Positions 29,187-49,624 of a stretch of DNA of 64,000 nt are shown here, in pieces. The stretch is from NCBI GenBank assembly GCA_937991435.1, contig CALKPY010000059.1, positions 1-64,000 on the forward strand, written 5' to 3'. Source of the stretch: an uncultured Acidimicrobiales bacterium. Lineage in GTDB: Bacteria; Actinomycetota; Acidimicrobiia; Acidimicrobiales; UBA10347. The notes under the pieces are model-generated. The model was not told the origin of the DNA and searched no databases. It saw only the letters and a list, made by a program, of their open reading frames with translations. Position 1 is the stretch's first letter; every line of letters begins with the position of its first letter. The translations under genes and the position numbers were made by a program.

Positions 29187-29221
29187 GGGTTTGTAATTTT
29201 GAACTGCGTTGTACAAAACCC
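29187..29221. promoter_or_regulatory. imperfect inverted repeat in the TetR/MBL intergenic region
   Basis: GGGTTTGTA (29187-29195) faces TACAAAACCC (29212-29221), differing by one inserted base, in the divergent promoter region. It is a candidate TetR operator. Confidence 0.45.
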
Positions 29222-29256
29222 TCGTTGCGTCCGTCGAACCGCTGGAGCGAAGCACC

Positions 29257-30099
29257 ATGATTGTCCATCATCTCAACTGCGGAAGCTTGTGCCCGCTGTT
29301 CGAAAGACTCATCAGCGGCACCGGGAGTTACGTCAAAAGAGGTCACTTGGTATGTCACTGCCTGCTGATTGAAACCGAACGCGGCCTTGTGCTAGTTGAC
29401 ACAGGAATCGGTCAACACGACATAGACCACCCCGGCCGTTTCGGCAAGGCCTACGACCTATTTAACAAACCCGCATACGACGAACAGCAGACCGCTCTCG
29501 CTCAGATAAAAGCCCTTGGCTTTGACCCGGACGACGTGCGCCACATCGTGCCGACACACCTTGATTTGGACCATGCCGGTGGCATTGCAGACTTCCCAAA
29601 GGCGACAGTGCACGTGCACAAAACTGAATACGAAACAGCAAAAGGGCAGGCAACCGCTGATTCGAAACGTCGATATCGAACCCACCAGTGGAATGACCAC
29701 ATCGCATGGGAACTGTACGAAGAGGCTGGCGAGTCCTGGTTTGACTTCGAAGCAGTTCGATCACTGCGCGGACTTCCCGAAGAGATCCTGCTGGTCCCGC
29801 TCGCAGGCCATACCCCTGGACAATGTGGTGTGGCAGTACAAGGCGAAGGGAACAACTGGCTTCTCCACGCTGGCGACGCCTATTTCCACCGAAGTAGTGT
29901 CGCCACGAATGGCAAAGTCCCACTCGGACTAAAACTGTTTGAGGGCATGGCTGAAGTAGTCAAGGGCCTTAGGCACACCAACCATGATCGGCTCAGGGAA
30001 TTAGCCCTGAAGCACGACAACGTTTCGGTGTTCTGCGCCCACGACCCGGTCGAGTTCGAAGCTTTTTCCAGCGGCGAACAACCGACTTCGTCGAGGTAA
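29257..30099 (+). CDS. metallo-beta-lactamase-fold hydrolase (lactonase-like)
   Basis: 280 residues from ATG 29257, with GGAG nine bases upstream; the TTG at 29209 is less likely. The metal motif reads THLDLDHAGG, where the usual HxHxDH is HxDxDH, a variant seen in a lactonase-like subgroup. Further ligands fit LAGHTPGQ, HAGDAYFH and the late CAHDP. It could hydrolyse a lactone or ester; N-acyl-homoserine-lactone lactonases are in this broad group, but specificity cannot be read from sequence. A divergent TetR gene suggests substrate-responsive control. Confidence 0.83.
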   Translation: MIVHHLNCGSLCPLFERLISGTGSYVKRGHLVCHCLLIETERGLVLVDTGIGQHDIDHPGRFGKAYDLFNKPAYDEQQTALAQIKALGFDPDDVRHIVPTHLDLDHAGGIADFPKATVHVHKTEYETAKGQATADSKRRYRTHQWNDHIAWELYEEAGESWFDFEAVRSLRGLPEEILLVPLAGHTPGQCGVAVQGEGNNWLLHAGDAYFHRSSVATNGKVPLGLKLFEGMAEVVKGLRHTNHDRLRELALKHDNVSVFCAHDPVEFEAFSSGEQPTSSR

Positions 30100-30373
30100 C
30101 TTCAGTCGACTGAGCAGATCTCAACCGCTTGCGGCCAGTCGCAACCTACGGCCAATGCGTTTTTCGGCGTGGCGTGATCGCCGACCTCGACGCCACTGGC
30201 TGACCACACGGTCGTTCGTTCGCCGCCAACCCGGGTCACCACCACTGAGGTTGGCCGAGCCCCCGCCGACGAGGCGGGTAGAGCGACGCTGCCGCCGAGC
30301 TCAACCGATTGAGGCCAGAGCAGTATCCGGCAACAGTTTCGATGCTCACCAAGCCAATCGTAGGGTTGTGTCC
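30100..30373. other. 274-base intergenic region with a palindrome and a doubtful small frame
   Basis: Directly after the hydrolase stop is the perfect 12-bp palindrome TCAGTCGACTGA (30102-30113). A minus-strand frame from about 30330 to 30102 has coding-like third positions and contains WPQSVE and WPQAVE, but it has no recognisable start signal or homology. The -10 of the aminotransferase closes the region. No other feature is evident. Confidence 0.4.
30361..30366 (+). promoter_or_regulatory. -10 box TAGGGT seven bases before a class V aminotransferase
   Basis: TAGGGT, seven bases, then ATG at 30374. No ribosome binding site is seen. Confidence 0.5.
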
Positions 30374-31564
30374 ATGACCGCAATAGATGTCGACCTGGTT
30401 CGTTCGCTGACACCCGGAACCAAGCACGGCACTCACCTGCTCGCGTGTGGCGCTGCCCTGATGCCCCAACCCGTGATCGACGCTGTGACCGACCATCTCA
30501 ACCTCGAAGCAGAAATCGGTGGCTACGAAGCTGCGGCCAGGCAACAAGCAGTGCTCGAAGGTGTCTACGCATCAGTCGCGCAGCTCATCAATGCCCACCC
30601 AACTGAAATCGCATTGCTCGAGCATGCAACCGCCGCGTGGTGCCATGCGTTTTACGCGGTGCCGATGAGACCCGGCGATCGGGTGCTGACCTGCGAGGCC
30701 GACTACGCAGCCAACCATGTTGCGATGCTGCACCGCCAAGATCGCGACGGAATCATTGTTGAGATCGTGCCAAGCGACAGTTCAGGGGCTATCGACCTCG
30801 ACGCTCTGGCATCGATGCTCACGACCCCGGCGCGTCTGGTCGCCCTGACCTGGGTGCCAACCAACGGTGGGCTCGTTAATCCTGCGGCCGAGGTTGGTCG
30901 TCTAGCCAGACAGAACGGAGCTCTTTACCTGCTTGATGCTTGCCAGGCCATTGGCCAGATGCCGGTCGACGTTCACGAATTAGGTTGCGACTTCTTGTCG
31001 GCGACAGGTCGCAAGTTTCTTCGCGGGCCCCGGGGCACTGGCTTTTTGTACGTTCGTCAAGAACTGCTTGAAGACCTACATCCGGCGATGATCGATCACT
31101 TCGGCGCCGAGTGGACCGCACTCGATTCGTACACATTGCGAGGCGACGCCAGACGCTTCGAAACCTGGGAGAACTCCTACGCACTCCGGGCGGGTCTTGG
31201 CGCATCTGTCGATTTCGCGCTCGAACTCGGCCTCGAAGCAATACGCGAGCACACGTGGGGATTGGCCAGCAGACTCCGAGACGGCATACGTGGCATCGAC
31301 GGTGCAGCGGTCTACGACCTTGGCGCCAACCCCTGCGCAATCGTCAGCTTCGCTATCGACGGCGTTGACGGCAGCGATGCCGTGACCTCGCTGCGTGAGT
31401 CAGGGATCAGTATCGGCATGACCGGCCCATCGAGCACGCTCATCGATACGCAACGCCGCCAGCTTCCTCACATGATGCGCGCTGCGCCCCACACCTATAA
31501 CTCAATCGACGAGATCGACCGACTCGTCAACGAACTCGACCGACTCCGACGCGCAAAGGCGTAG
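30374..31564 (+). CDS. class V aminotransferase / cysteine desulfurase-like PLP enzyme
   Basis: 396 residues from ATG 30374; the upstream in-frame extension is low-complexity and lacks homology. The PLP site is visible: ATAAWCHAFYAV (cofactor stacking region), LLDACQAIGQMPVDV (Asp that pairs with the pyridine nitrogen, and Gln), and SATGRKFLRGPRGTGFLYV with the Schiff-base Lys. The C-terminal domain continues through the TWENSYALRAGLGASVDFAL helix. The group includes isopenicillin N epimerase-like and ergothioneine EgtE-like C-S lyases as well as aminotransferases. No egt genes lie nearby, so the reaction is open. It is convergent with the sulfatase fusion. Confidence 0.87.
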   Translation: MTAIDVDLVRSLTPGTKHGTHLLACGAALMPQPVIDAVTDHLNLEAEIGGYEAAARQQAVLEGVYASVAQLINAHPTEIALLEHATAAWCHAFYAVPMRPGDRVLTCEADYAANHVAMLHRQDRDGIIVEIVPSDSSGAIDLDALASMLTTPARLVALTWVPTNGGLVNPAAEVGRLARQNGALYLLDACQAIGQMPVDVHELGCDFLSATGRKFLRGPRGTGFLYVRQELLEDLHPAMIDHFGAEWTALDSYTLRGDARRFETWENSYALRAGLGASVDFALELGLEAIREHTWGLASRLRDGIRGIDGAAVYDLGANPCAIVSFAIDGVDGSDAVTSLRESGISIGMTGPSSTLIDTQRRQLPHMMRAAPHTYNSIDEIDRLVNELDRLRRAKA

Positions 31565-31574
31565 CCTCGCCGCA

Positions 31575-34175
31575 TCACAGCGCCACTACCTTGAGGTTGG
31601 CAGCAGCGAGTTGAAGCATTTCGCGTGCCACCATCGGTGCGGCATTTTGGTTCTGACCTGTGATCAGGTTGCCGTCAACGACCCAGTGGTTGGCCAACGG
31701 ATCACGGAAGCGCGTAGCGCTCTCAAAGAGCGCTCCGGCACGCCGCAGCTCGGTCTCGGGGTGCTTGGGTGTCGATTCGATGCCGAGTTCGCGCACTTGC
31801 TTGTCGGTGACCGCTGTAACTCGTCGCCCGTTGACCAGATCTGACCCGTCGGCTGCCTTGGCACCACACAAACCAAGAGGACCGTGACAGACACCACCGA
31901 TCACCCGATTGAGTTCATTTGCTCTCGTGATCTGCGTGGCAAGGGGCATCGATGTCGCGAAATCAAATGCTGCTCCCCAGCCGCCTGCGAGATAGACAAT
32001 GTCGTATTCGTCGATGACGAGATCGCCGACTGCACGCGACGTGTCTACCTTTGACCGAAATGTCTCGTCGGCAAGAAAACGATCATCGGCAGCGCAACGA
32101 ACTGGTGGGCGCAGCGACTGAGGATCTACGGGAACCAGACCGCCGAGGGGACTGGCCAAGTCGACGGACATTCCTGCATCATCAAATGCGTAATACGGCA
32201 CCGTCATCTCGCTGGCGAACACGCCTGTCGGTTTCCCAATCTCGAGCCACCCGTGATTGGTACACACGACGAGAGCCCGTCGACCAACAAGCGATTCCGA
32301 CACGAAGGTCGAATCATCTTCAGGGTGAAGACCCAGCCGCTGCAAGGCTCGTCGGGCCAACAACGCCGGGGGGCGCGGTTTGACACTTGCCGGACCGGTC
32401 GACGCGACGCGTTCGACGTAAGGCCATGGCTCGTTTCGTTTGGCGATCGATCGATGCCTTTCCGAGTTCAGAACTTTTTGCAGATGGTCAAAGACCGCAA
32501 CGGACGCTGGGTCACGCCAACGGTTGACCGCTTCGATGGGATCATCGTCAAGGTTGTAGAGCTCCCACTCGTCTGGCAGCGGTTCGGTTCGATAGCTCTC
32601 ACCGCTCGGTCCCGTCGCCGCCAAGTGTCGTTGGCCGGGTTGGGTCCAGGTGTCTGGGTCATCGAACGTACGCACGAGCTTCCATAGCTGGCCGCCGCCG
32701 CCGACCGCATCGACTTCGCTGACACGGTTGACAACGCCTTCGAAGTTCGAACCGACGTGGGCAGCAACCTGAATCTTCAGTGGAGTTGGCGGGTTCTTCT
32801 CCCGTCCGAATCGACGTGCCATAGCCGACGCGCCAGAGTCGCCCTCAAGCATGTTGTCACGAGTCATGAGATACACGGCGCGATCACGGTCGGCCTGTGC
32901 AGGGGCAGCGACAACCGGCATAAGGTTTCGCCCCGGAAGCGGGTGGACCTCACTGAAACGCTGGCGCAATCGTGCCCCCACGATTGCTTCGTCGATTCCG
33001 GCGGCACCGAGAAGTGTTGGCACAATGTCGACATGCGACGTCGGCGCATCTGTGACAGTCGCTCCGACCGTCGGATTCGACCCGACGCGCGTAATCGAAA
33101 ACGGCACACGTGTGGCCTCGTCGTACAGGGTGAACCACTTCTGGTGTAGACCACCGTGTGAGCCAAGCAGATCACCGTGATCTGCGGTGCGCACGATGAC
33201 CGCGTCGTGTCCGCTGTTGGTGACTGTGCGCCGAACTAAATCGAGCGGACCGTCGACCTCGGCATGTAACCGGTAGTACAGATCGCGATACTGCTGAAGG
33301 TTGCGCTTGTAGGCCCTGCTCACCGCGGCGGCCAGGCCATAGCCGGTCGGATATGACTCTCGATAGGCGATCTGCGCTGCAGGCTTGCCTCTCAGATCTT
33401 CGTCATCGGTCGGTGACGGAGCAACGGTTGGCGGGTCGAGTGGTGAGGGGCTTTCGACGGGACTTCCGGAACGGACCCATGCCGGAAACAACACGATGTC
33501 GTGTGGGTTGACGAAACTTGCGACCAGGAGAAACGGACGAAGCGCCTCAGCGTCGCCAGCGGCTCGACGCGTGTACCGGTCCGCGAGCCAACGAGTGCAC
33601 TGCTCGGCAATCAGCGGATCTCGCCGTAATCCGCAGTTGGCCATCGCCCCGCCGTGCGGCTCCGGCCCAACCCAGCCATCGAACCCATACGCGTCGAGCG
33701 GGTTCGCCCTGCGATAGGCCTCGACCCCTCGCTCCAAGACGTTGCCTGCGCTGTCGTTGGTGCGCAGGACTTCACCGGAGTCACCATGCAGGTCGGCATG
33801 ACTGATGTGCCACTTGCCGCGATATTGGGTGTCGTAACCGGCTTCCCGAAACCAATGTCCAAGGGTCGGAACTTCACCTTCGGGCAACCACCGCAGACGT
33901 GAATCGTCGGCCATCTTGCCAAGACCATCGGTCTGGGTAACACCGTGAACATCGGGGTATTGACCGGTGAAGATTGTGGGACGACTCGGCACGCAGGCCA
34001 ACGAGCCGGTGTAGTGCCGTGCAAAGTTGACCGCGTTGTCGGTGAACCAACGTTCGGCGGCGAGCGTGCTGCGGCGCCAATCGGTCAAGTCCTGCGATTC
34101 ATAGGTCGGGGCCGCTCGTTCTTCGTCGGTCATGATCACGATGACGTCGGGTTGCATGTCAGCAGATTCAGTCAT
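31575..34175 (-). CDS. sulfatase fused to a DJ-1/PfpI-type domain
   Basis: 866 residues from ATG 34175, which overlaps the upstream SRPBCC stop (ATGA); the frame continues to 34451 without homology. Residues 9 to about 620 are a type I sulfatase: metal site VIVIMTDEER, Cys61 in CVPSRPTIFTG (converted to formylglycine), GKWHISH, and the metal motif RTADHGDLLGSHGG. Residues about 655-866 are a class I glutamine-amidotransferase-like domain of the DJ-1/PfpI/Hsp31 type, with a nucleophile elbow GGVCHGPLG (Cys763, His764) and a preceding IVYLAGGWGAAFD strand. The first part hydrolyses a sulfate ester with Ca2+; the second may be a glyoxalase, deglycase or hydrolase. No signal peptide, so it is cytoplasmic. 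Confidence 0.9.
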   Translation of the reverse strand: MTESADMQPDVIVIMTDEERAAPTYESQDLTDWRRSTLAAERWFTDNAVNFARHYTGSLACVPSRPTIFTGQYPDVHGVTQTDGLGKMADDSRLRWLPEGEVPTLGHWFREAGYDTQYRGKWHISHADLHGDSGEVLRTNDSAGNVLERGVEAYRRANPLDAYGFDGWVGPEPHGGAMANCGLRRDPLIAEQCTRWLADRYTRRAAGDAEALRPFLLVASFVNPHDIVLFPAWVRSGSPVESPSPLDPPTVAPSPTDDEDLRGKPAAQIAYRESYPTGYGLAAAVSRAYKRNLQQYRDLYYRLHAEVDGPLDLVRRTVTNSGHDAVIVRTADHGDLLGSHGGLHQKWFTLYDEATRVPFSITRVGSNPTVGATVTDAPTSHVDIVPTLLGAAGIDEAIVGARLRQRFSEVHPLPGRNLMPVVAAPAQADRDRAVYLMTRDNMLEGDSGASAMARRFGREKNPPTPLKIQVAAHVGSNFEGVVNRVSEVDAVGGGGQLWKLVRTFDDPDTWTQPGQRHLAATGPSGESYRTEPLPDEWELYNLDDDPIEAVNRWRDPASVAVFDHLQKVLNSERHRSIAKRNEPWPYVERVASTGPASVKPRPPALLARRALQRLGLHPEDDSTFVSESLVGRRALVVCTNHGWLEIGKPTGVFASEMTVPYYAFDDAGMSVDLASPLGGLVPVDPQSLRPPVRCAADDRFLADETFRSKVDTSRAVGDLVIDEYDIVYLAGGWGAAFDFATSMPLATQITRANELNRVIGGVCHGPLGLCGAKAADGSDLVNGRRVTAVTDKQVRELGIESTPKHPETELRRAGALFESATRFRDPLANHWVVDGNLITGQNQNAAPMVAREMLQLAAANLKVVAL

Positions 34176-34690
34176 GACGAACCGTCCTTGGTGTCGAAGT
34201 ACGAACTCAGACCAGTCAACATTTCGTCTGATGTGCGGGCTATTCGCCGCGCGACCAGCCGAGCCAACGCAACCTGTGGCGGGCGTGCTCCTGCATCGAC
34301 GGTGGTCGACAGCTCGATGGTTCGACGTCGACCACCATCGGTCACGAGCCAGGCGTTGTGCACCGAGCGCAGCACCGCAGGCAACCCGTGGATCGAATAC
34401 GCCAGACGGGCTTCGAAGGTTGGTCCCAAGCCTGTCGCCGGCGGCGCCCACGCCACGATTGTCTCAACGAGCGCTAGGCGCCCTGATTGGATTCGTCGCT
34501 TAGTCCCGACGCCTACCGGTAGGTGGGTGAGCAAAGTCGAATGATCGACATTTGCTGCCCAAGCCGCGATCTCTCCGAAATCTGCAAGCGTTGCCCAGAC
34601 ATCATCGATCGAGGCTGACGTCGAAATACCGCGCTGCTGACGCTCGCCATGCAGCACCAAGGGCTCGACTCTCGCGAAAGGGGGGTTCAT
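34172..34690 (-). CDS. SRPBCC-family protein
   Basis: 172 residues from ATG 34690, preceded by AGGAAG. The SRPBCC (polyketide cyclase/START-like) pattern is clear: ISTSASIDDVWATLADFGEIAAWAANVDHSTLLT, then VGTKRRIQSGRLALVETIVAW and a long C-terminal helix (ARLVARRIARTSDEMLTGL). It would bind a hydrophobic ligand in a cavity. It is the first gene of a two-gene operon with the sulfatase-DJ-1 fusion and is divergent from a TetR gene, so a shared inducible catabolic role is plausible. Confidence 0.82.
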   Translation of the reverse strand: MNPPFARVEPLVLHGERQQRGISTSASIDDVWATLADFGEIAAWAANVDHSTLLTHLPVGVGTKRRIQSGRLALVETIVAWAPPATGLGPTFEARLAYSIHGLPAVLRSVHNAWLVTDGGRRRTIELSTTVDAGARPPQVALARLVARRIARTSDEMLTGLSSYFDTKDGSS

Positions 34691-34747: not shown

Positions 34748-34763
34748 AGTTGTACTATCAACT
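34748..34763. promoter_or_regulatory. operator-like repeat AGTTG-N6-CAACT over a -10 box
   Basis: The 5-6-5 inverted repeat surrounds TACTAT (34753-34758), a -10 for the TetR gene whose GTG is at 34767. It lies in the 76-base divergent region, so binding could affect both directions. Confidence 0.5.
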
Positions 34764-34766
34764 TCT

Positions 34767-35378
34767 GTGAGGTCGCCCAAACAGCCCGTCGCAGTAGCAG
34801 CTGATGGCAGGCGGGCGCGGCGCGAGCGTGGCCGCGTGGCTGCGCTCGATGCAATGATCGACCTAATCGGCGAAGGGCACGTTCCCCCCAGTTCTGAACA
34901 GGTGGCCGAGCGGGCGCAAGTGTCGGTGGCCTCGCTCTTCCGCTACTTCGACACCGTCGACGACCTGCGGGCACAAGCAGCGGCCTTGGCTCTCGAGCGT
35001 TACGCCGTTGCGTTTGCCATCGAGCCGATTGGCAAAGGAACCGCTTCGGAGCGAATTGCAACGCTGACAGACGCTCGTCTCGCCCAATACGAACAGCTCG
35101 CCCCATTTGGCAGGCTGATTCGAATACGAGCGCCCCATATCGACGCCGCACGAGATCAGCTGGCCCGGTTGCGGGCTACCCAGGTCGATCAGATCCGGGT
35201 GCACTTTGCTCGAGAGCTACAGCTGCGAACCCCAGCGAACGGCGATGATCTGGTTGCCACAATCCACTCGCTGACATCGTTCGAATCGTGGGAACAGTTT
35301 CGCGGCGCACTCGGGCGCAGCCGCTACCAAACACGCCGAGCGTGGAGCGTCGCTCTTGAGGCAATCGTGACGATGTAG
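34767..35378 (+). CDS. TetR-family regulator divergent from the sulfatase-DJ-1 operon
   Basis: 203 residues starting at GTG 34767. The helix-turn-helix at about 20-70 reads RVAALDAMIDLIGEGHVPPSSEQVAERAQVSVASLFRYFDTVDDLR. The C-terminal half is variable and rich in Arg and Leu, as expected for a ligand domain. Its start lies 76 bases from the divergent SRPBCC start, with an inverted repeat across its own -10. It probably controls the divergent operon and perhaps the following acyl-CoA dehydrogenase, 32 bases downstream on the same strand. Confidence 0.88.
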   Translation: MRSPKQPVAVAADGRRARRERGRVAALDAMIDLIGEGHVPPSSEQVAERAQVSVASLFRYFDTVDDLRAQAAALALERYAVAFAIEPIGKGTASERIATLTDARLAQYEQLAPFGRLIRIRAPHIDAARDQLARLRATQVDQIRVHFARELQLRTPANGDDLVATIHSLTSFESWEQFRGALGRSRYQTRRAWSVALEAIVTM

Positions 35379-40707: not shown

Positions 40708-42990
40708 CTATTGCCTTGACATCTCGGCCCGTGCCGTCGCTTCGGCGTCGACTGACGACGGGCTACCTCGCTCGATAACGACCTCGTGAATGTCGCCTGC
40801 GAACACGAACTCATCGTTGTACCGCGGCGAAACCTGCGAGCCATGGTCTGACCCGACGCTCGACCCCAACGACGAGATCATGCGCATCATGAACGCGAGC
40901 TCGCCCCTACCCGTCGCAACTCCATCTACCCAAAGCTCGATCCGCCCAGTCGTGCGGCTGGTGCGAAGAACCTTAACTTCAAGCACCGACTCACCGCTGG
41001 GGATCGGCGTGAGCGATTCGACAACCGTGTGATCGTCAAAGGCGTTGTAATCGACCACTAACCGGTCGCCCTGCACGAAGACTGACATGCCCGCACTGGC
41101 GCTTCCGGTAGCCCAGATGACACCTTCATCGCCAACGCTTCGGTGCACCTGTGCGGTGAGGTGCCAAGATCGACCAGATGGCGCAGCCGAAGCCGACGCT
41201 GGAATCGGAGAGATCGGAGGCCGATAGACGTAGCGGCGATCGGGGCGATGCGGTGAATGCTCGTCGAACCGGGCAGCGAACAACTCGATGCCCCGATCGT
41301 CGAGCGGCAGCACGCCATGACGCTCGGCCTCACTCCACCAAAGTCCAATCAACTCTTCGAGCTTGGCAGGCTGGTCTTCGGCTAGATCGTTGCACTCGGA
41401 TGCATCAGCCGTCAGGTCATACAGCTCCCACCGGTCTTCGTCGTACGGCGTGTTCTGCACGTGTCGTGTGACCGCCTTAAACCAGCTTGCGCCATCTTGG
41501 GCAACCAGCGCCCGCGAACCGAACATCTCGAAATACTGAACAGTGTTGGTCGCTGGCGCGTTGGCGTCGTCAAGTAACGACGCAAACGATCGACCCGTAA
41601 TTGCAAGCTGTTCAAGGCCGTTCAGCGTTGCGGGGGCCTGAACTCCAAGCAGCTCATAGATCGTGGGCACGATGTCTGACACGTTGACGAATTGGTTGCG
41701 CTGGGTGCCGTGCTGGCCGTCGGCGATACCCGCTGGCCAATGCATGACCATGGGCACATGGACACCGCCCTCGTGGGTGTTCTGTTTGTACCACTTGAAC
41801 GGGCTGTTGCCGCATTGCGCCCATCCCCATGGGTAGTTCGTGTGGCTGTGCGGGCCGCCGATCTGGTCGATGCGTTGGACAGCCTCGTCGGGCATTTCGA
41901 GAATGCCGTTGAAGAACTTCATTTCGTGCATGACCCCGAACGGCCCGCCCTCTTGCGATGCACCATTGTCGGCCATCACGATCACAATCGTGTTCTCGAG
42001 CTGATCAGCGGCACGCAGCCCGTCGACGAGTCGCCCAATCTGGTCGTCGGTGTGATCGAGAAACGCCGCGAACGCCTCTTGCAGGCGACACGCCAACCGC
42101 TTCTGATTTTCAGGAAGCGTGTCCCACTCATCGACCCCGTCGTTGCGAGGGGCAAGCACAGTTCCGGCCGGAATCACGCCGAGCTCAAGCTGACGCTCGA
42201 ACCAGCGTTGACGAATGACATCCCAGCCTTCGTCAAAGCGACCGCGGTACTTGTCGAGGTAGGGCTGCGGCGCCTGGTGCGGCGCGTGAGTGGCGCCAAA
42301 AGGAAGGTAAGCGAAGAACGGTCGGTCCGGACGCACTGCCTTGGAATCGCGAATCATCAACAGCAACTGATCAACCAGATCTTCGCTGAGGTGGTAACCG
42401 TCTTCGGGGGTCGCCGGCGGGTCGACCTTGTGATTGTCGATCACCAGTTCTGGGTGAAACTGGTCGGTCTCGCCCTCAAGGAATCCGTAGAAGCGGTCAA
42501 AACCCCGGCCGAGCGGCCATTGATCAAACGGCCCGGCCGCCGACGTGTCGAGGGTGGGAGCAAGGTGCCACTTACCCGCGCAAAAAGTGGCGTACCCCTC
42601 GGCCTTGAGCACCTCGGCAATCGTGCCCGCATTGTTCGCAATGTGGCCAAGCTGATGAGGGAAGCCGGTGCGGTGATTCGACACTGACCGCATACCCACC
42701 GCGTGTTGGGATCGGCCGGTCAGCAGCGATGCCCGGGTCGGTGAACACAGCGGCGTCACATGGAAGTTCGTAAACTGCAATCCAGACGCCGCGAGCGCAT
42801 CGACGTTGGGCGTGTCGATGTCTGAGCCGTAGCACCCGAACTGCGCAAAACCCGTGTCGTCGAGTAGCACAACGACGACGTTTGGAGCCCCGTCGGCCGC
42901 GTGAGCCAGCGACTCGAAGTGCGCCTCGGAGTCGGTGAGGGTACGGCCGATCTTGCCTGGGAACGAAGCGATATTGTTGACGTTGGCCAT
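40708..42990 (-). CDS. cytoplasmic arylsulfatase (AtsA-like)
   Basis: 760 residues without signal peptide. Metal site: NVVVVLLDDTGF; formylglycine motif: Cys82 in PLCSPTRASLLTGR; GKWHLAP; IVIVMADNGASQEGG; and THEGGVHVP near the active site. The size and order match Pseudomonas AtsA-type alkyl/aryl sulfatases, followed by a roughly 160-residue C-terminal beta domain (WHLTAQVHRSVGDEGVIWATG...). Such enzymes release sulfate from sulfate esters with Ca2+. The gene lies upstream of copA on the same strand, but a separate -10 before copA argues against an obligatory operon. TAGGGT is eight bases before the ATG. Confidence 0.93.
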   Translation of the reverse strand: MANVNNIASFPGKIGRTLTDSEAHFESLAHAADGAPNVVVVLLDDTGFAQFGCYGSDIDTPNVDALAASGLQFTNFHVTPLCSPTRASLLTGRSQHAVGMRSVSNHRTGFPHQLGHIANNAGTIAEVLKAEGYATFCAGKWHLAPTLDTSAAGPFDQWPLGRGFDRFYGFLEGETDQFHPELVIDNHKVDPPATPEDGYHLSEDLVDQLLLMIRDSKAVRPDRPFFAYLPFGATHAPHQAPQPYLDKYRGRFDEGWDVIRQRWFERQLELGVIPAGTVLAPRNDGVDEWDTLPENQKRLACRLQEAFAAFLDHTDDQIGRLVDGLRAADQLENTIVIVMADNGASQEGGPFGVMHEMKFFNGILEMPDEAVQRIDQIGGPHSHTNYPWGWAQCGNSPFKWYKQNTHEGGVHVPMVMHWPAGIADGQHGTQRNQFVNVSDIVPTIYELLGVQAPATLNGLEQLAITGRSFASLLDDANAPATNTVQYFEMFGSRALVAQDGASWFKAVTRHVQNTPYDEDRWELYDLTADASECNDLAEDQPAKLEELIGLWWSEAERHGVLPLDDRGIELFAARFDEHSPHRPDRRYVYRPPISPIPASASAAPSGRSWHLTAQVHRSVGDEGVIWATGSASAGMSVFVQGDRLVVDYNAFDDHTVVESLTPIPSGESVLEVKVLRTSRTTGRIELWVDGVATGRGELAFMMRMISSLGSSVGSDHGSQVSPRYNDEFVFAGDIHEVVIERGSPSSVDAEATARAEMSRQ

Positions 42991-42998
42991 AGCGGCCG

Positions 42999-43004
42999 AC
43001 CCTA
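42999..43004 (-). promoter_or_regulatory. -10 box TAGGGT before the arylsulfatase gene
   Basis: On the minus strand TAGGGT is followed by eight bases and the ATG at 42990, giving little or no leader. Confidence 0.4.
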
Positions 43005-43051
43005 GTTACTGCGCTCTGCACTGGCAATTGTTCACAGCAGAGCTGGTGACT

Positions 43052-43873
43052 TCAGATCGATATGGTGGTCAGATCATCGCCGATGACAATCTCGCCGTCG
43101 AAGTGCTCAGCAGCGATGGCTGTCCATTCGGGGTACTGATCGGAGGTCGGCGCAGGGACCATGTGCGTCATCGCCAGGCGCTTAGCGCCGACGCGGGCAG
43201 CTGTTTTCGCCGCGTCGCTCACCGATGAGTGATAGTCGTGAATGTCCTGCAACAATTCGTTTGGAATCAGCTCGACAAGGTCGGGCCGGATCACGGTCTG
43301 CACATAGACATCAACGCCACCAGCCAGTTCATCGAGACCCGAGCACGGAATGCTGTCACCCACGATCGCCGCAGTTGAACCAGCGTGTGTAAGGCGAAAA
43401 CCGATGGTTGGGTGAACCGGTGCATGTTCGGTCGCTGCCGTTGTGATCGCGATGTCGTTCACGTCAAATGCGTCGCCCGGTTCGAGTTCGGTGACCTTGA
43501 CCTGCGGACCGACCGCCAACGCATCGTGGTGCTCAAGACGATAAGAGGTATCGGCTTCGAGCGCGCTCAGCTGCCGCTCGACGAATCGAGCAGTTCCGAC
43601 TGGGCCGTAGATGTTGAGCTCGGCGTTGCCGGCGGTCATTACCCAATGTGTGGTGATGACATCGTTGAGTGCACAGACATGATCGCTGTGAAGGTGGGTG
43701 ATCAACACCGCAGACAAAAACCCAGGCATCGAACCCGCAGCAGCCATTCGCATGACTACTCCGCGACCGGCATCGACGAGCAGATGGGTGTCGCCAGCCT
43801 TGATGAGTGTCGACGGCCCCGCTCGGTTCGCGTCTGGCAACGGCGATCCGGTTCCGGTCAATACGACGTCCAT
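43052..43873 (-). CDS. metallo-beta-lactamase-fold hydrolase (RNase Z/arylsulfatase-like group)
   Basis: 273 residues from ATG 43873 (ATG 43879 is also possible). The fold starts VVLTGTGSPLPDANRAGPSTL as in RNase Z-like enzymes. Metal ligands are in THLHSDHVCALND (HxHxDH), with VGDSIPCSGL for the Asp and a late TEHAPVHPT His. Its length and lack of an exosite suit a phosphodiesterase or sulfatase-like hydrolase rather than tRNase Z. The neighbouring arylsulfatase makes a sulfatase-group activity worth noting. A TetR gene lies 72 bases upstream on the same strand. Confidence 0.82.
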   Translation of the reverse strand: MDVVLTGTGSPLPDANRAGPSTLIKAGDTHLLVDAGRGVVMRMAAAGSMPGFLSAVLITHLHSDHVCALNDVITTHWVMTAGNAELNIYGPVGTARFVERQLSALEADTSYRLEHHDALAVGPQVKVTELEPGDAFDVNDIAITTAATEHAPVHPTIGFRLTHAGSTAAIVGDSIPCSGLDELAGGVDVYVQTVIRPDLVELIPNELLQDIHDYHSSVSDAAKTAARVGAKRLAMTHMVPAPTSDQYPEWTAIAAEHFDGEIVIGDDLTTISI

Positions 43874-43945
43874 AGTCATTCTTCTTTCGTTACACGTCGG
43901 CGCGTGGGCCACGTCGGTCAAAATTGTGCGCGTAGCCTAGGCCGA

Positions 43946-44551
43946 TCACGCAAACAACGAAGTAAGTGCTGCGACGAGCATCTGCTCTACCTGCTGAGCC
44001 GACAAGCCGCGATGACGCCGCAGGTAATCGATCGATTCCAGTTGCGTCAAGATGTCTCCTGCAGCAGTCACCGCCTTGCGGTCAACTGCAGACCGTTGCT
44101 CGAGTTCAGGAGCAAACTGCAGCTCAAATTGTGCGAGCATCGCATCGCGCCCAGCGGTGAGTTCCTCAGCGACGCGGTCATGGTGCGCGGCGTTGGCGAG
44201 GGTCGCGCGATACACCGCGCCTATTCCATCGTGAAGCCGGAGTCGCATTGCGATGAAACGTTCGACGCGCAGCAGCAGGCTTCCGTTCCCGATGCCGTGC
44301 AACTGACTAAGTTCGGCACTACGAGCATTGTTGTGTCTGATGACGGCTTCGAGCAGTTCGCCGGGGTCGGCAAAGTAGCGATACACCGAGCGCAGTGAAA
44401 GCCCAGAACGAGTTGCCACCTGCTCAATCGTGGGGAAGAGCGCATCTTCTCCAAACATTTCGAGCACGACCTCGATGACGGTCTCGATGTTTCGCCTACG
44501 ACGCTCCACCCGACCATCAACCGTGGCATGCGCGTCGACCTCAGCGGTCAC
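43946..44551 (-). CDS. TetR-family regulator with a 22-bp operator
   Basis: 201 residues from GTG 44551. The helix-turn-helix lies at about 22-70 (ETVIEVVLEMFGEDALFPTIEQVATRSGLSLRSVYRYFADPGELL). The C-terminal part is helical with no recognised ligand motif. It is divergent from a lipoprotein gene; a perfect 9-4-9 palindrome lies between them and a partial copy precedes the next sulfatase, so it probably represses both. The gene before it on the other side encodes the metallo-hydrolase, which may be co-transcribed. Confidence 0.88.
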   Translation of the reverse strand: MTAEVDAHATVDGRVERRRRNIETVIEVVLEMFGEDALFPTIEQVATRSGLSLRSVYRYFADPGELLEAVIRHNNARSAELSQLHGIGNGSLLLRVERFIAMRLRLHDGIGAVYRATLANAAHHDRVAEELTAGRDAMLAQFELQFAPELEQRSAVDRKAVTAAGDILTQLESIDYLRRHRGLSAQQVEQMLVAALTSLFA

Positions 44552-44674
44552 GAGGCGTTGTTTTGCGAGTGAACATCGGGTTTCAAGCTAGCAACCGATC
44601 CAGCCATTCTCGCAGCGCGATACCTCGACTTGTGTATTCAACTGTGCCCCACGACGTGACCGGTTTCACGCGCC

Positions 44675-44696
44675 ATAACTGAACTCATTCAGTTAT
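44675..44696. promoter_or_regulatory. 22-bp perfect palindrome, probable TetR operator
   Basis: Arms ATAACTGAA and TTCAGTTAT flank CTCA. The right arm overlaps the -10 (TATCGT, 44694-44699) of the lipoprotein gene, whose ATG follows at 44708. It is 124 bases from the divergent TetR start. Confidence 0.8.
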
Positions 44697-44707
44697 CGTC
44701 CACAAAC

Positions 44708-45490
44708 ATGAACCAATTCAGTTTTTGCCCATCGTCTTCCATCCACCCGTCCCGGTACCAGATCTCACGAATCAAAGTCATCTTCGCGGTGGCGTTGTTT
44801 GCGCTCGTTTCGTCGGGCTGCGGTTCCACCAACGACGACTCGCGTGACGAGCAGACGACGGCAGCTGACTCAACCACCCAAGTGCAGCCAACGGTGGCTC
44901 CCGACCCAACCCCTGCTCCCGACCCAACCGTGGCTCCAGATCCGACCCTGGCTCCAGATCCGACCGTGGGCTCCGATTCGGCAATCCGCATCGACGAAGA
45001 CGCGACCTCAACAGCAATTGAATATCGCGAAGACGACTTGTCGTTGTTCGACTCTCCTGACGCGATTGTCGTCGACAAGCAACGGCGCTTCACAACGACC
45101 TGCGAAGCAGTCTTTGCAACCTTTTCAAACGAGGCCTCATGGGAAACATGGGTTCTCGGAGCGGAATTCGATTATCTGGCGGGCCAAACGGAAGGGGTTG
45201 GAACGACCCGAATAGCGCACCTAATGGGATCAAACCTCGAGGAGAAGTTCTTCGTATGGCAACAAGATCAACGAGTTGCGTTCACCGTCGTTCGCGGAGA
45301 TAACCCGCTGTTCCAGTCATTTGTCGAAGACTTGCAACTCACACCCGGCGAAGGCGACATGTGTGATCTGCGCTTTCGCGTCGCGCTCGATCTCGTGGCC
45401 GAGGATGAAGCAAGTCTCGCTGTCGTCAACGACCAGTTCTCGCCTTTCCTCGACGCGTCGCTCGACGCATTCGTCGAGATGTTGAGCTAA
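44708..45490 (+). CDS. lipoprotein with Pro/Asp repeat stalk and SRPBCC-like domain
   Basis: 260 residues. The N-terminus has a signal sequence ending in the lipobox VSSGC, so the protein should be lipid-anchored outside. Residues about 60-95 form four tandem APDPTx units, an extended stalk. The C-terminal half (about 125-260) resembles a START/SRPBCC domain: CEAVFATFSNEASWETWVLGAEFDYLAGQTEGVGTTRIAHLMGS and a final helix LDASLDAFVEM. An extracellular ligand-binding role is suggested. Its promoter overlaps the palindromic operator, so it is likely TetR-controlled. The sulfatase gene follows 71 bases later on the same strand. Confidence 0.75.
   Translation: MNQFSFCPSSSIHPSRYQISRIKVIFAVALFALVSSGCGSTNDDSRDEQTTAADSTTQVQPTVAPDPTPAPDPTVAPDPTLAPDPTVGSDSAIRIDEDATSTAIEYREDDLSLFDSPDAIVVDKQRRFTTTCEAVFATFSNEASWETWVLGAEFDYLAGQTEGVGTTRIAHLMGSNLEEKFFVWQQDQRVAFTVVRGDNPLFQSFVEDLQLTPGEGDMCDLRFRVALDLVAEDEASLAVVNDQFSPFLDASLDAFVEMLS
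44897..44968 (+). repeat. four tandem 18-bp repeats encoding APDPTx
   Basis: Units at 44897, 44915, 44933 and 44951. The first two share codons GCTCCCGACCCAACC, the last two GCTCCAGATCCGACC, indicating two rounds of duplication. Confidence 0.92.
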
Positions 45491-45545
45491 CCCGAAAGTC
45501 CCCATGACGAACAGGGCCGCCGTCAACAGCGCCGATTTGTTTGAA

Positions 45546-45564
45546 GAACTACCATTCAGTAATG
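45546..45564 (+). promoter_or_regulatory. -10 box and operator half-site before the secreted sulfatase
   Basis: TACCAT (45550-45555) stands six bases before the ATG at 45562. The same bases contain GAACT and CATTCAGT, as in the 22-bp palindrome upstream but with two extra bases between them. Confidence 0.45.
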
Positions 45565-47112
45565 GAGCACACACTTCGTTCGATCGTCGTGGCGGTGGCC
45601 ATCGGCGCTCTGCTCGCAACCACAGCGCCTGAGGCGTTTGCCAACGCGGATTCGGTCGCTCAAACCAACGACAGCGAAACGCCGGTTGCGGCTGTCGACC
45701 ACGATGCACCGAACATCATTGTTTTCATGACCGATGATCAAACGGTCGAGCAAATGAGCGGGTTGGCCCTCACCACCGAACTTCTTGTTGATGGTGGGGT
45801 CACCTTTACTCAGTCCGTAGTGAACCTCGCATCGTGCTGCCCAAGCCGAGCGACCTTCCTGACCGGACAGCATGCCGGCAACCATGGCGTCGTGACCAAC
45901 AGCGGTAGGTCCGGTGGTGCTGACTCATTTGAAAACGAAGACACAGCGCTACCGGTTGCGCTACAAAACGCCGGCTACGACACTGTTTTCGTCGGCAAGT
46001 ACCTCAACGGATATGGGTTTATCCGCCGCTACACCCCGCCGGGTTGGACTGACTTCCGTGGGCTCATCAGCCCTACCGAAGTGCTCTACCACTCACCATC
46101 GTTTTGGATCGACGACGAAATGGTTTCGTTCGGCGTCGACGATTACGCGACCGATGTGATCAACGACTTCACACTCGAGGCCATCGACGAGGCAGGCGAC
46201 GACAATCCGATCTTCGCCTGGGTCAGCTATCCAGCTCCACATGCCGAAGCCGGTCAGCCTCTCACCACACTCGATCGCGAGCTTCTGTTCCGGGAAGCCA
46301 GACACACAACCGACGATGTGTACCTGCGACCGCCGGGTGTCGCGCCGCGGCACCAGGGTCTGATCGATGAGGGGCTTCCACCGACGCCGAACCTCAACGA
46401 AGCAGACATCAGCGACAAACCTGAGTTCTTGGCCCGCAAGGTTCGACTTTTCACCGGGCTCGAATCAGCCGAGGTTTTTCACTCGGCACAACTCGGCTCG
46501 TTACTCGCCGTCGACGAATCAGTCGCCGCCATCGTCGAACGCATGCAGCAGTCGGATCGGGACACCTGGTTCATCTTCACCTCAGACAACGGGCTTCTCG
46601 TCGGCGCGCATCGGCATTTCGGGGCCAAGTACTTCCCGTACGAAGAGAACACGCGAGTTCCGCTCATCATCGCTGGGCCTGGCGTTGAACCAGGTACGAC
46701 AAACCCCATGATGAGTTCGAATGTGGACCTGACGCCGACGATTCTTGATCTGGCCAATGCCACTGCCTTGCGTGAACCTGATGGCATCTCATTGGTGCCG
46801 TATGCCACGGGCGAGATCGAGCCTCACGGCCGAGCTGTTCTGCTTGAGGGCTACGAGTGGAGGCCCAAGGTGCCGCCGTTCGTTGGCGTACACACGGGAA
46901 GCTCCGTGTACGTCGAGTGGTTCAATGGCGATCGCGAGCTCTATGACCTCACCGCCGACCCATATCAACTCGAAAACCTCTATGGCGTCGACGGCACCCG
47001 ACGCCTGCTCGGCCGAAACCGAGCGCTACTTCGTCAACTCGAAAGCTGTGAGGGCGAGCCGTGCCGGACCATCGGAGCGGCCCTTCCCGACCCGATCCCG
47101 CCAACGCGATGA
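45562..47112 (+). CDS. secreted sulfatase (type I, CCPSR motif)
   Basis: 516 residues from ATG 45562. Residues 1-28 are a signal peptide. The metal site is IIVFMTDDQTVEQM; the formylglycine motif is Cys92 in SCCPSRATFLTGQ; GKYLNGYG and the late FTSDNGLLVGAHRHFGAK loop are conserved, followed by ENTRVPLIIAGPG. This resembles mucin/glycosaminoglycan-type sulfatases. It would remove sulfate from an external polysaccharide or glycoconjugate. It follows a lipoprotein gene with a shared regulatory motif. No adjacent formylglycine-generating enzyme is seen; one must be encoded elsewhere. Confidence 0.92.
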   Translation: MEHTLRSIVVAVAIGALLATTAPEAFANADSVAQTNDSETPVAAVDHDAPNIIVFMTDDQTVEQMSGLALTTELLVDGGVTFTQSVVNLASCCPSRATFLTGQHAGNHGVVTNSGRSGGADSFENEDTALPVALQNAGYDTVFVGKYLNGYGFIRRYTPPGWTDFRGLISPTEVLYHSPSFWIDDEMVSFGVDDYATDVINDFTLEAIDEAGDDNPIFAWVSYPAPHAEAGQPLTTLDRELLFREARHTTDDVYLRPPGVAPRHQGLIDEGLPPTPNLNEADISDKPEFLARKVRLFTGLESAEVFHSAQLGSLLAVDESVAAIVERMQQSDRDTWFIFTSDNGLLVGAHRHFGAKYFPYEENTRVPLIIAGPGVEPGTTNPMMSSNVDLTPTILDLANATALREPDGISLVPYATGEIEPHGRAVLLEGYEWRPKVPPFVGVHTGSSVYVEWFNGDRELYDLTADPYQLENLYGVDGTRRLLGRNRALLRQLESCEGEPCRTIGAALPDPIPPTR

Positions 47113-47140: not shown

Positions 47141-47878
47141 TCAATACAAACCGCCACGAGGGTCGTGACCTCGCTGCGCGAGCTTGGTCAGACCAACGGT
47201 TGCCGCCGCCTTCACGGCCATGTTCTTGATGAACCACGGCATTGAGCGCATTTGCCTGGCCGCGTTGCGAACTACCCCCGACGTATCGATCGACTGGCGG
47301 CGATACACCGCCATCGACCGCTCACGTTTGACATAAGTCCACTCGCGAGAGAACCACAGCGACCTCATCACCGCCAACGTCACAAAAAACGATGTGTAGA
47401 CATCGTGGATCGCCATGGTCCCACCTGGCACCACCCGATCACCCCAACCATTGATGTCGCTGAGCGCTGGTCGGTACCCGTGCGCTCCATCGACATACAA
47501 CAGGTCGACCGATCCCGGAATCATCAGATGGGCCTTCTGGCTGAACTCGCGTACGTGCGTCACCCGCGAACGCACACCATGGGTTGTCAGATGAGCAATG
47601 AACTGATCGTGATCGGCCTGACCGTCTGCTGCCTCGCCTTGCCACTGCCCTGGCCCGCGATCGTTACCCGCATGCGGGTCAATTGCGTACACGGTCGCCT
47701 TATCGGGCGCCGCGGTTGCGAGAATCACGGTCGACTTGCCGTGGTAGCTGCCGATCTCCACAATTGTCGCACCCGGTTGCAGCGCAGCGGCCTCGGCCCA
47801 GAGCACCGCGGCCTGCTCGCGACGAAGCCATCCCTCGTAGCCAGCGACCTGTTTGTACACGTCATCAAAGGCGTTCAT
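47141..47878 (-). CDS. class I SAM-dependent methyltransferase (methyltransferase-24-like)
   Basis: 245 residues. The SAM site is IVEIGSYHGKSTVIL with the acidic AIDPHAG after strand 2; VDLLYVDGAHGYRPALSDINGWGDRVVPGG is the typical Methyltransf_24/cephalosporin-hydroxylase-like core. The C-terminus has a basic, possibly membrane-associated helix. Its start overlaps the sulfotransferase stop (ATGA), so both act in one pathway, presumably modification of a sugar of the surface glycan made by the neighbouring cluster. Confidence 0.83.
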   Translation of the reverse strand: MNAFDDVYKQVAGYEGWLRREQAAVLWAEAAALQPGATIVEIGSYHGKSTVILATAAPDKATVYAIDPHAGNDRGPGQWQGEAADGQADHDQFIAHLTTHGVRSRVTHVREFSQKAHLMIPGSVDLLYVDGAHGYRPALSDINGWGDRVVPGGTMAIHDVYTSFFVTLAVMRSLWFSREWTYVKRERSMAVYRRQSIDTSGVVRNAARQMRSMPWFIKNMAVKAAATVGLTKLAQRGHDPRGGLY

Positions 47879-48873
47879 GAGTCTTCTCCAGTCGAGGGGA
47901 TCTGATGTCTTGCCAACCGCCTGGTGACCTCCCGTGATTCGGGTGCAGTCGGGCGGTAGCCGTAGTTGCGGGCGATCGCGGCCGACCCGAAACCCGCAGA
48001 CCTAGCAACGCGACCGCCATTGCGACGCCAAACCTCGTCTGCGTGAATCTGCACGGTGCCAGCGTCGAACCGATTCGGGTTTCCCCACGCTATGTGATTG
48101 GGACTGACATTGAATCGGCCGTCTTCAACAGGCATGGTGGTGAGCGGTTCTCCAATAAAGTCTGCGATCTCGGCCAGCGCACGTTCGGGCGAAGCAACGA
48201 AGTCTTCGTATCGCATGAGCCGGTACCGGTCTGATCGTGACCAGATCGCTTCAGCCGCCACGTTCGACACTGTGTAATAGAGCGACGAAGTCAGCGGACC
48301 ACGATTTTCCATGCGACGTACGCCGTCGAGCCCTTTCTCGCGGCGCTGACGACTCCACGAATACGCAACCGCACGCGGGTCGCGCACCAGATGCACGAAG
48401 TACATATCGAGATCGGTCCTGTCTCGCAGTATCCAGCTGTAGTGCGGCTCTTTTGATGAGTCCACGATGACCCGAGACTGCGTCACATCGGCGATGGCCC
48501 GGTACGTCGATTCAACGACGTGCGGGAAGTCACCCAATCGATCGAACATGCGTGCCGCGATACCAGGAAGCGCCATGAGCGGAAGGTGTATCGACCAGCA
48601 ACGCTTGCGGGCCGCCACCATTTGGTCGGCGTCGACTTGGACGTCATTGGCAATAAGCATGGCAAATACTTGGGACCACAATTCGCAGTCGGCCACGCGG
48701 TCGCCGCAGGCGCAACGCCCTTGCTGTTGCAGGCCGTATCGCCACATAAACGCCAGTTCCCCTCCAGCAAACCAACCGGGTACCTCGCCGAGCAGCTTGG
48801 TCAAAAGCGTGCTGCCGGTTCGCCCCGTTCCGCCGATGTACAGCACCTTGGGCCGGTACTGTTCATTTCGCAT
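47875..48873 (-). CDS. sulfotransferase
   Basis: 332 residues from ATG 48873. The 5'-phosphosulfate loop is GGTGRTGSTLLTKLL (14-28) and the 3'-phosphate site is VDSSKEPHYSW plus VHLVRDPRAVAYSW. It transfers sulfate from PAPS to a hydroxyl or amine, probably on a sugar. The Cys-rich GRCACGDRVADCELW stretch is typical of a bacterial sulfotransferase group. It overlaps the methyltransferase downstream (ATGA). Its ATG shares the four bases CATG with the start of the divergent methyltransferase gene; GTG 48897 is the alternative start. Confidence 0.88.
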   Translation of the reverse strand: MRNEQYRPKVLYIGGTGRTGSTLLTKLLGEVPGWFAGGELAFMWRYGLQQQGRCACGDRVADCELWSQVFAMLIANDVQVDADQMVAARKRCWSIHLPLMALPGIAARMFDRLGDFPHVVESTYRAIADVTQSRVIVDSSKEPHYSWILRDRTDLDMYFVHLVRDPRAVAYSWSRQRREKGLDGVRRMENRGPLTSSLYYTVSNVAAEAIWSRSDRYRLMRYEDFVASPERALAEIADFIGEPLTTMPVEDGRFNVSPNHIAWGNPNRFDAGTVQIHADEVWRRNGGRVARSAGFGSAAIARNYGYRPTAPESREVTRRLARHQIPSTGEDS

Positions 48874-49624
48874 GCCAGCGCCCACGTCAGCCACCAATCC
48901 AGCTCGGCCGGCGCGTCTGAGTTCGTTGGAACTTGTGCGCCGGTTCCTTCGTGATCGCGGTGACGATGACTTCGCCCGCGAATTGGCGTTTCGGGCCGTT
49001 GAATCGCTTCCGCCAATCGACGGGCTGCACGTTGCCGATATCGGGTGCGGTCCGGGTTACTACGCAACTGCGATGGAAGACCTCGGGGCAACGGTCAGCA
49101 CTGTCGAGATCGATTTCAGCGAACTTGCAGCAGCGACTCGCCGTCCGGACGCCGCCACATGCGGCGATGCTCGACACCTTCCGTTTCGACACAGCGCATT
49201 TGACGCCGTGTTGTGTTCGAACATGCTCGAACACACGCCAGACCCGCTCGACGTAATCGACGAAATCGGTCGAGTGCTTCGGGTTGGCGGTTGGGCATGG
49301 GTGAGCTGGACCAATTGGCTGTCTCCGTGGGGCGGTCACGCTATTGCACCATTGCACTATTTGGGAGCCGAGCGCGGCCTGCGCGCGTACCGACGGATAC
49401 TCGGTGAACCCAAAGGCAAGAACTTGCCTTTTGACGGCGTTTGGCCGCTGCACATTACGACAGTACTTAACCACCTCAACGACCACGCCACGTTGAACGT
49501 CGAAGCCGTCGAGCCGCGCTATTACCCCGGACTGCGAGCGATCATGCGCGTACCAGGCGTTCGCGAGGTCGTCGCCTGGAACTGCGTGATTCGGTTGCGA
49601 CGTCACGACGATCGTCCTAGTTGA
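48872..49624 (+). CDS. SAM-dependent methyltransferase (methyltransferase-11 type)
   Basis: 250 residues from ATG 48872, which overlaps the divergent sulfotransferase start; a later in-frame start is possible. The SAM motif is VADIGCGPGYYATAM, with VEIDFSELAA, CGDARHLPFRHSAFDAVLCSNMLEHTPDPLDVI and GRVLRVGGWAWVSW. The last third (LSPWGGHAIAPLHYLGAERGL) resembles methyltransferases in glycan clusters. Its 3' end overlaps the flippase gene by 22 bases. Likely an O-methylation of surface-glycan sugars; inferred from context. Confidence 0.85.
   Translation: MPAPTSATNPARPARLSSLELVRRFLRDRGDDDFARELAFRAVESLPPIDGLHVADIGCGPGYYATAMEDLGATVSTVEIDFSELAAATRRPDAATCGDARHLPFRHSAFDAVLCSNMLEHTPDPLDVIDEIGRVLRVGGWAWVSWTNWLSPWGGHAIAPLHYLGAERGLRAYRRILGEPKGKNLPFDGVWPLHITTVLNHLNDHATLNVEAVEPRYYPGLRAIMRVPGVREVVAWNCVIRLRRHDDRPS

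Follow-up and report, generated by a model that had tools for sequence, protein, structure and literature searches.

A stretch of 64,000 nucleotides from an uncultured member of the Acidimicrobiales (hereafter the window) encodes a single protein of 866 residues in which a type I sulfatase is joined to an Hsp31-class DJ-1/PfpI domain, a form that recurs, with an SRPBCC gene invariably linked to it, in dozens of aquatic actinobacteria, nearly all of them Acidimicrobiia. The component parts are known kinds of enzymes and the domain architecture is new. We give an even chance to a tandem function, in which the sulfatase desulfates an organic sulfate ester and the DJ-1 domain then processes the electrophilic product.

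The fusion gene (31575..34175, minus strand) runs uninterrupted from an ATG at 34175 to a stop at 31575, and Pfam recognised two domains in its product, Sulfatase (PF00884) at residues 9-394 (E 8e-38, above the curated cut-off) and DJ-1_PfpI (PF01965) at residues 654-855 (E 5.6e-13; 49.5 bits vs. a cut-off of 26.6). The boundary between them lies at about residues 590-630, slightly N-terminal of the residue 640 given in the original prediction. No signal peptide was recognisable by eye at the fusion ATG and the protein is likely cytoplasmic, as had been proposed. In the AF2 model of the fusion (pLDDT 80) the domains are mostly confident, and its pTM of 0.68 makes it too weak to place the two active sites relative to each other. 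A homologue scan with one genome per species yielded 80 loci, and 80 complete fused proteins were gathered from these and from loci found in genome searches of the family and the class; they are complete across both domains, about 57-72% identical to the window protein, and derive from independent assemblies, including isolates and the single-contig genomes G007, G032, G115 and G162; Acidimicrobiia bacterium EGI L10123 (L082) and IMCC26207 (L043) are cultured bacteria with the fusion. The original prediction had allowed that the frame could be a sequencing frameshift or read-through near residue 640, and that homologues with the same fusion could be absent altogether. Such homologues are abundant, and 80 end-to-end proteins of the same length, some from isolates and closed genomes, leave next to no probability that a frameshift, a misassembly or the read-through of two separate genes produced the fusion.

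In the sample drawn from the class, 29 of 296 genomes had a match, and 19 of the 29 were counted as fused. Records named as a planctomycete, a Bifidobacterium MAG and a Frankiales MAG fell among the Acidimicrobiia in the tree, and their binning or labelling may be wrong. On the tree of the sulfatase domain the fused/unfused label changes 2 times, compared to 14.3 with shuffled labels, which fits a single origin of the fusion. At three loci (L062, L091, L093) about 60-70 extra residues are inserted between the sulfatase and the DJ-1 domain. A search of plasmids for a similar fusion gave none, the best matches being unfused proteins from Tistrella and Paenibacillus with 35-38% identity in the sulfatase, nor was one found in the phages searched. 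Candidates for a second, independent fusion elsewhere in the phylum (G481, G556) were rejected, their long frames being antisense read-through and their DJ-1 genes standing alone. A literature search found no report of a sulfatase-PfpI fusion, and within the literature searched neither the architecture and its broad conservation nor the altered Hsp31 site or the constant SRPBCC partner appears to have been described.

By family and motif, the N-terminal half (residues about 8-590; 32406..34154, minus strand) is an intact type I (S1, PF00884) sulfatase domain, presumably active. Among 46 aligned members the invariant residues comprise C61-V-P-S-R65, the motif in which Cys61 had been predicted, together with D17, D332, H333, H225, K121, H123 and K346, and the GKWH motif is likewise invariant in the sulfatase half of fused members; from family knowledge, we take the N-terminal Asp, the DH pair, the His and the Lys residues to bind metal and sulfate. 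The top structural matches in Foldseek were choline sulfatases, phosphonate monoester hydrolases and other S1 sulfatases. The choline sulfatases rank first and are by sequence nearly as close as the phosphonate monoester hydrolases, one of which, 4upk, is among the closest solved relatives (E 4e-15). With this group (6g5z, 6fny, 4upk) the fusion shares the whole sulfatase fold, CxPxR, the DHG metal site and the HxK region, but in the structural alignment identity is as low as about 17%, and the fusion carries the additional C-terminal DJ-1 domain. Its score with the NCBIfam choline sulfatase model TIGR03417 is 84 bits, against a curated equivalog cut-off of 433.

The C-terminal half (residues about 630-857; 31605..32286, minus strand) was assigned to the Hsp31-class DJ-1/PfpI domains by Pfam, alignment and sequence comparison, and the complete DJ-1-like domain with a GVCHG motif anticipated by the original prediction was recovered, with C763, the cysteine of the nucleophile elbow, inside the motif and a full-length Hsp31-class domain (about 630-856). 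Hsp31-class proteins (1u9c, 4p5p, yeast Hsp31 4qyx and C. albicans Glx3 4lru) give full-length matches to the domain and share the active-site Glu and Cys-His; Glu656 and Cys763 occur in 100% of the fused members and His764 in 99%, which fits a chemistry on an electrophilic carbonyl. The domain of the fusion differs from these proteins in being joined to a sulfatase and in carrying GGW for GGH, Val for the triad acid and NQNA for NPxS. When the pocket was compared with that of 13 stand-alone relatives, GGH proved to be replaced by GGW in all fused domains (W733, 100%), the E-E pair by Q793-V794 and NP by NQ843, the position of the triad acid being Val794 in 97% of the fused domains vs. Glu in 13 of 13 relatives, and R693, R699, H805 and N829 were newly fixed. 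In our reading of the sequence alignment V794 aligns with Glu170 of yeast Hsp31, the third member of a cysteine-protease-like triad C138-H139-E170 (PMC4021431); in SAV0551 of Staphylococcus, glyoxalase III activity was slight or absent when the conserved Glu, Cys or His was mutated, and marginal in the mutant of the acid (PMC5691139). With Val794, the fused domain lacks the Cys-His-acid triad by which Hsp31-type glyoxalases III are recognised. With other residues uniformly in place of this acid and of the GGH histidine, the domain would not be a standard glyoxalase III and looks like a specialised enzyme, in which the core for carbonyl chemistry appears to have been kept and the pocket remodelled. 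The uniformity of the changes (W733, Q793, V794, R693, R699, H805, N829) points to a new specific substrate.

Either half could nonetheless have another role. Sulfatase and phosphonate/phosphodiester hydrolase activities are promiscuous in the group to which the N-terminal domain belongs, and the nearness of 4upk by sequence, with phosphonate monoester hydrolases also among the structural matches, argues for a phosphonate monoester or phosphodiester hydrolase of the same superfamily in vivo in place of a sulfatase; the first structural rank of the choline sulfatases, nearly as close by sequence, and the presence of an AtsA-type arylsulfatase and an arylsulfatase-like MBL protein among the neighbours make this rather improbable. 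The DJ-1 domain, for its part, might be a non-catalytic binding or oligomerisation domain, the protein then being a sulfatase with an accessory domain, and the loss of both the Hsp31 triad acid and the GGH histidine is in keeping with such a role. However, Glu656 and Cys763 are invariant and His764 nearly so, and DJ-1-type enzymes naturally lack the third acid, Glu and Cys being the residues essential for activity (PMC4021431, PMC5691139), so that we hold a non-catalytic domain to be quite improbable. The loss of the acid could still mean reduced DJ-1 catalysis, and we count it against the tandem function.

If the DJ-1 domain instead protected or repaired the sulfatase or its formylglycine aldehyde, as a deglycase, a chaperone or a thiol/redox partner, and performed no second catabolic step, this would accord with the chaperone activity that DJ-1-superfamily proteins can display independently of the catalytic cysteine (PMC5691139), and an unusual maturation aid is conceivable because some fusion genomes have no recognisable dedicated formylglycine-generating enzyme (FGE). 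Yet fusion genomes with a true FGE exist (G007, G115, G263, G276), the whole active-site core and the surrounding motifs of the DJ-1 domain are invariant, and close homologues do without the domain. These unfused sulfatases of the same clade (L092 of Mycolicibacterium, L095 and L096 of Ilumatobacter type, L103, L013) are 60-65% identical to the sulfatase domain of the fusion, and their loci, when examined, contained neither DJ-1 remnants nor separate DJ-1 genes, so folding and maturation of the sulfatase do not require the DJ-1 domain; we hold a protective role to be unlikely. By the same token, the sulfatase can do without a second step. The DJ-1 domain as the missing maturation factor of FGE-less genomes was not supported, given that the fusion also occurs in FGE-positive ones. 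As regards maturation in general, the source MAG (G000) is 94% complete and encodes 7 CxPxR sulfatases; neither in it nor in the single-contig genome G162 was a dedicated FGE recognisable or an anSME found above the cut-off, and the sole PF03781 protein of the source MAG is EgtB (L098:1177-2472). The related genomes G007, G115, G263 and G276 harbor a full FGE.

Directly upstream of the fusion lies an SRPBCC gene of the Polyketide_cyc2 family (172 aa; 34172..34690, minus strand; PF10604, E 2.8e-10, 41.1 bits vs. a cut-off of 27.4), and the ATGA at its end contains the start codon of the fusion, in agreement with the operon originally proposed. Across the fused clade, each of the 84 loci with at least 400 bases upstream has this gene immediately before the fusion and in the same orientation, mostly with an overlap of a few bases; a few of these loci end at a contig edge before the DJ-1 domain. 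Among the five close unfused relatives only that of Mycolicibacterium (L092) has an SRPBCC gene upstream, and SRPBCC therefore tracks the fused form. The unfused paralogues at L095:5272-7725 and L096:5300-7722 stand directly behind a gene of the dienelactone-hydrolase family (Pfam on L095 only), not behind SRPBCC. The AF2 model of the window SRPBCC protein (pLDDT 90) has a helix-grip fold, and Foldseek matched it to PYL receptors, START proteins and the ZhuI aromatase/cyclase, folds that have a cavity for a hydrophobic ligand.

Divergently from these two genes runs a putative TetR-type regulator (about 34767..35378, plus strand). It scores 21.1 for TetR_N, short of the Pfam cut-off of 24, and groups with 37 further TetR-like proteins from the fusion loci (cluster 2). 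Between it and SRPBCC an operator-like short palindrome, AGTTGTACTATCAACT (AGTTG-N6-CAACT; 34748..34763, unstranded), occurs where 0.03 would be expected by chance in the 64 kb of the window. The divergent TetR-like gene and the operator-like repeat of the original prediction are both present in the window, but the face-to-face arrangement is not conserved. A palindrome common to the TetR genes of the other loci was looked for and none was shared, and a common operator was rejected. The neighbourhood was assessed at the 42 loci where 5 kb or more of sequence flanks the fusion on each side, by counting genes within 6.5 kb of it; a TetR of the window's type was present in 32 of them.

At the same 42 loci an AtsA-type arylsulfatase (24/42), a subfamily I haloalkane dehalogenase (21/42), an MBL-fold arylsulfatase-like hydrolase (21/42) and a DUF1330-like protein (18/42) recurred. 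The idea of a catabolic sulfate-ester module holds, and the proposed module is larger than was thought, as it also takes in a TetR, a haloalkane dehalogenase and two further sulfatase-type hydrolases. The window has its AtsA-MBL-TetR part 6.5-10 kb from the fusion (40708-44551, all on the minus strand) and comprises an AtsA-type arylsulfatase of 760 aa (40708..42990; 1hdh/4cxk, E about 1e-85), to which, and not to the fusion protein, the AtsA of Pseudomonas aeruginosa (1hdh) is akin, an arylsulfatase/RNase Z-like MBL-fold hydrolase (43052..43921; 8gyg arylsulfatase, E 5e-21) and a second TetR-type regulator that clusters with the one at 34767 (43946..44551). The dehalogenase and the DUF1330-like gene of the source MAG are on another contig than the fusion, and in the closed genomes G007, G032, G115 and G162 no more than about 2 kb separates the fusion from the best dehalogenase match, which is the sole full-length one. 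AtsA, dehalogenase and MBL are all absent nearby at 15 of the 42 well-covered loci, and the wider set is therefore not obligatory. It is also partly independent of the fusion, as nearly all the Acidimicrobiales searched have a dehalogenase, fusion-less genomes included, some of these with AtsA and MBL adjoining; a dehalogenase specific to the fusion was rejected on this ground, and only its position beside the fusion is notable. Other fusion loci contain a Rieske oxygenase, a P450, a carotenoid-cleavage-type oxygenase or a TauD-type dioxygenase, consistent with the catabolism of varied organic compounds. A literature search for Acidimicrobiia with sulfatase and haloalkane dehalogenase together found no report.

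Other features of the surroundings were observed as well. The second TetR of the window faces a second SRPBCC-type gene (44708-45490) followed by a sulfatase with a signal-peptide-like N-terminus (45541-47112), an arrangement (43946-47112) that parallels the fusion locus, and a perfect 9-bp inverted repeat, ATAACTGAA-N4-TTCAGTTAT, lies between this TetR and the second SRPBCC-type gene at 44675-44696. The window's three sulfatases have a sulfotransferase-family gene (47875-48897) nearby. Convergent to the fusion, and ending 11 bases from its stop, are an AttM/AiiA-like MBL lactonase-type gene and a class V aminotransferase of cysteine desulfurase/EgtE-like type (29209-31564). In a marine MedAcidi-like clade (L067, L068, L071, L075, L076, L094) the SRPBCC-fusion pair is in fixed synteny near selA and selB, with no sulfatase/dehalogenase set, and an HTH_67 gene comes after the fusion at L053, L056, L064, L069 and L090, most of these loci having a carotenoid-cleavage/lignostilbene-type oxygenase (RPE65 family) close downstream.

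The conservation of both active sites in the 80 fused homologues counts for the tandem function, since decay would be expected if either domain were inert. In such a scheme, a small organic sulfate ester would enter the cell, the N-terminal formylglycine-type sulfatase would remove its sulfate, and the DJ-1 domain, by means of Cys763 and Glu656, would act on an electrophilic, probably carbonyl-type product, the reactive intermediate staying local in the two-domain protein. The co-translated SRPBCC protein, with its START/PYL-like pocket, may bind or deliver the hydrophobic substrate or product, and the pair would belong to a recurrent catabolic set of the Acidimicrobiia with AtsA, MBL hydrolase, haloalkane dehalogenase and TetR. 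The desulfation step is suggested by family membership and conserved residues, and that at Cys763/Glu656 is one we infer. A more speculative proposal, which we consider very improbable, is that the gene set forms a pathway for sulfated and halogenated algal natural products such as chlorosulfolipids, desulfation and dehalogenation yielding a reactive carbonyl for the altered DJ-1 domain. A literature search on bacterial chlorosulfolipid degradation returned nothing useful, and we know of no earlier pathway of this type; if true, the proposal would provide both the Hsp31-type domain and these dehalogenases with a natural role.

Many activities have been claimed for DJ-1/Hsp31 proteins, with few agreed physiological substrates. 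An altered Hsp31 domain joined to a sulfatase, with both active sites kept across many genera, would tie the DJ-1 reaction to a definite partner reaction, and the substrate of the sulfatase, once found, would show the target of the DJ-1 domain. The fusion also marks a sulfate-ester gene set that is widespread among Acidimicrobiia of freshwater and the sea and has apparently not been described.
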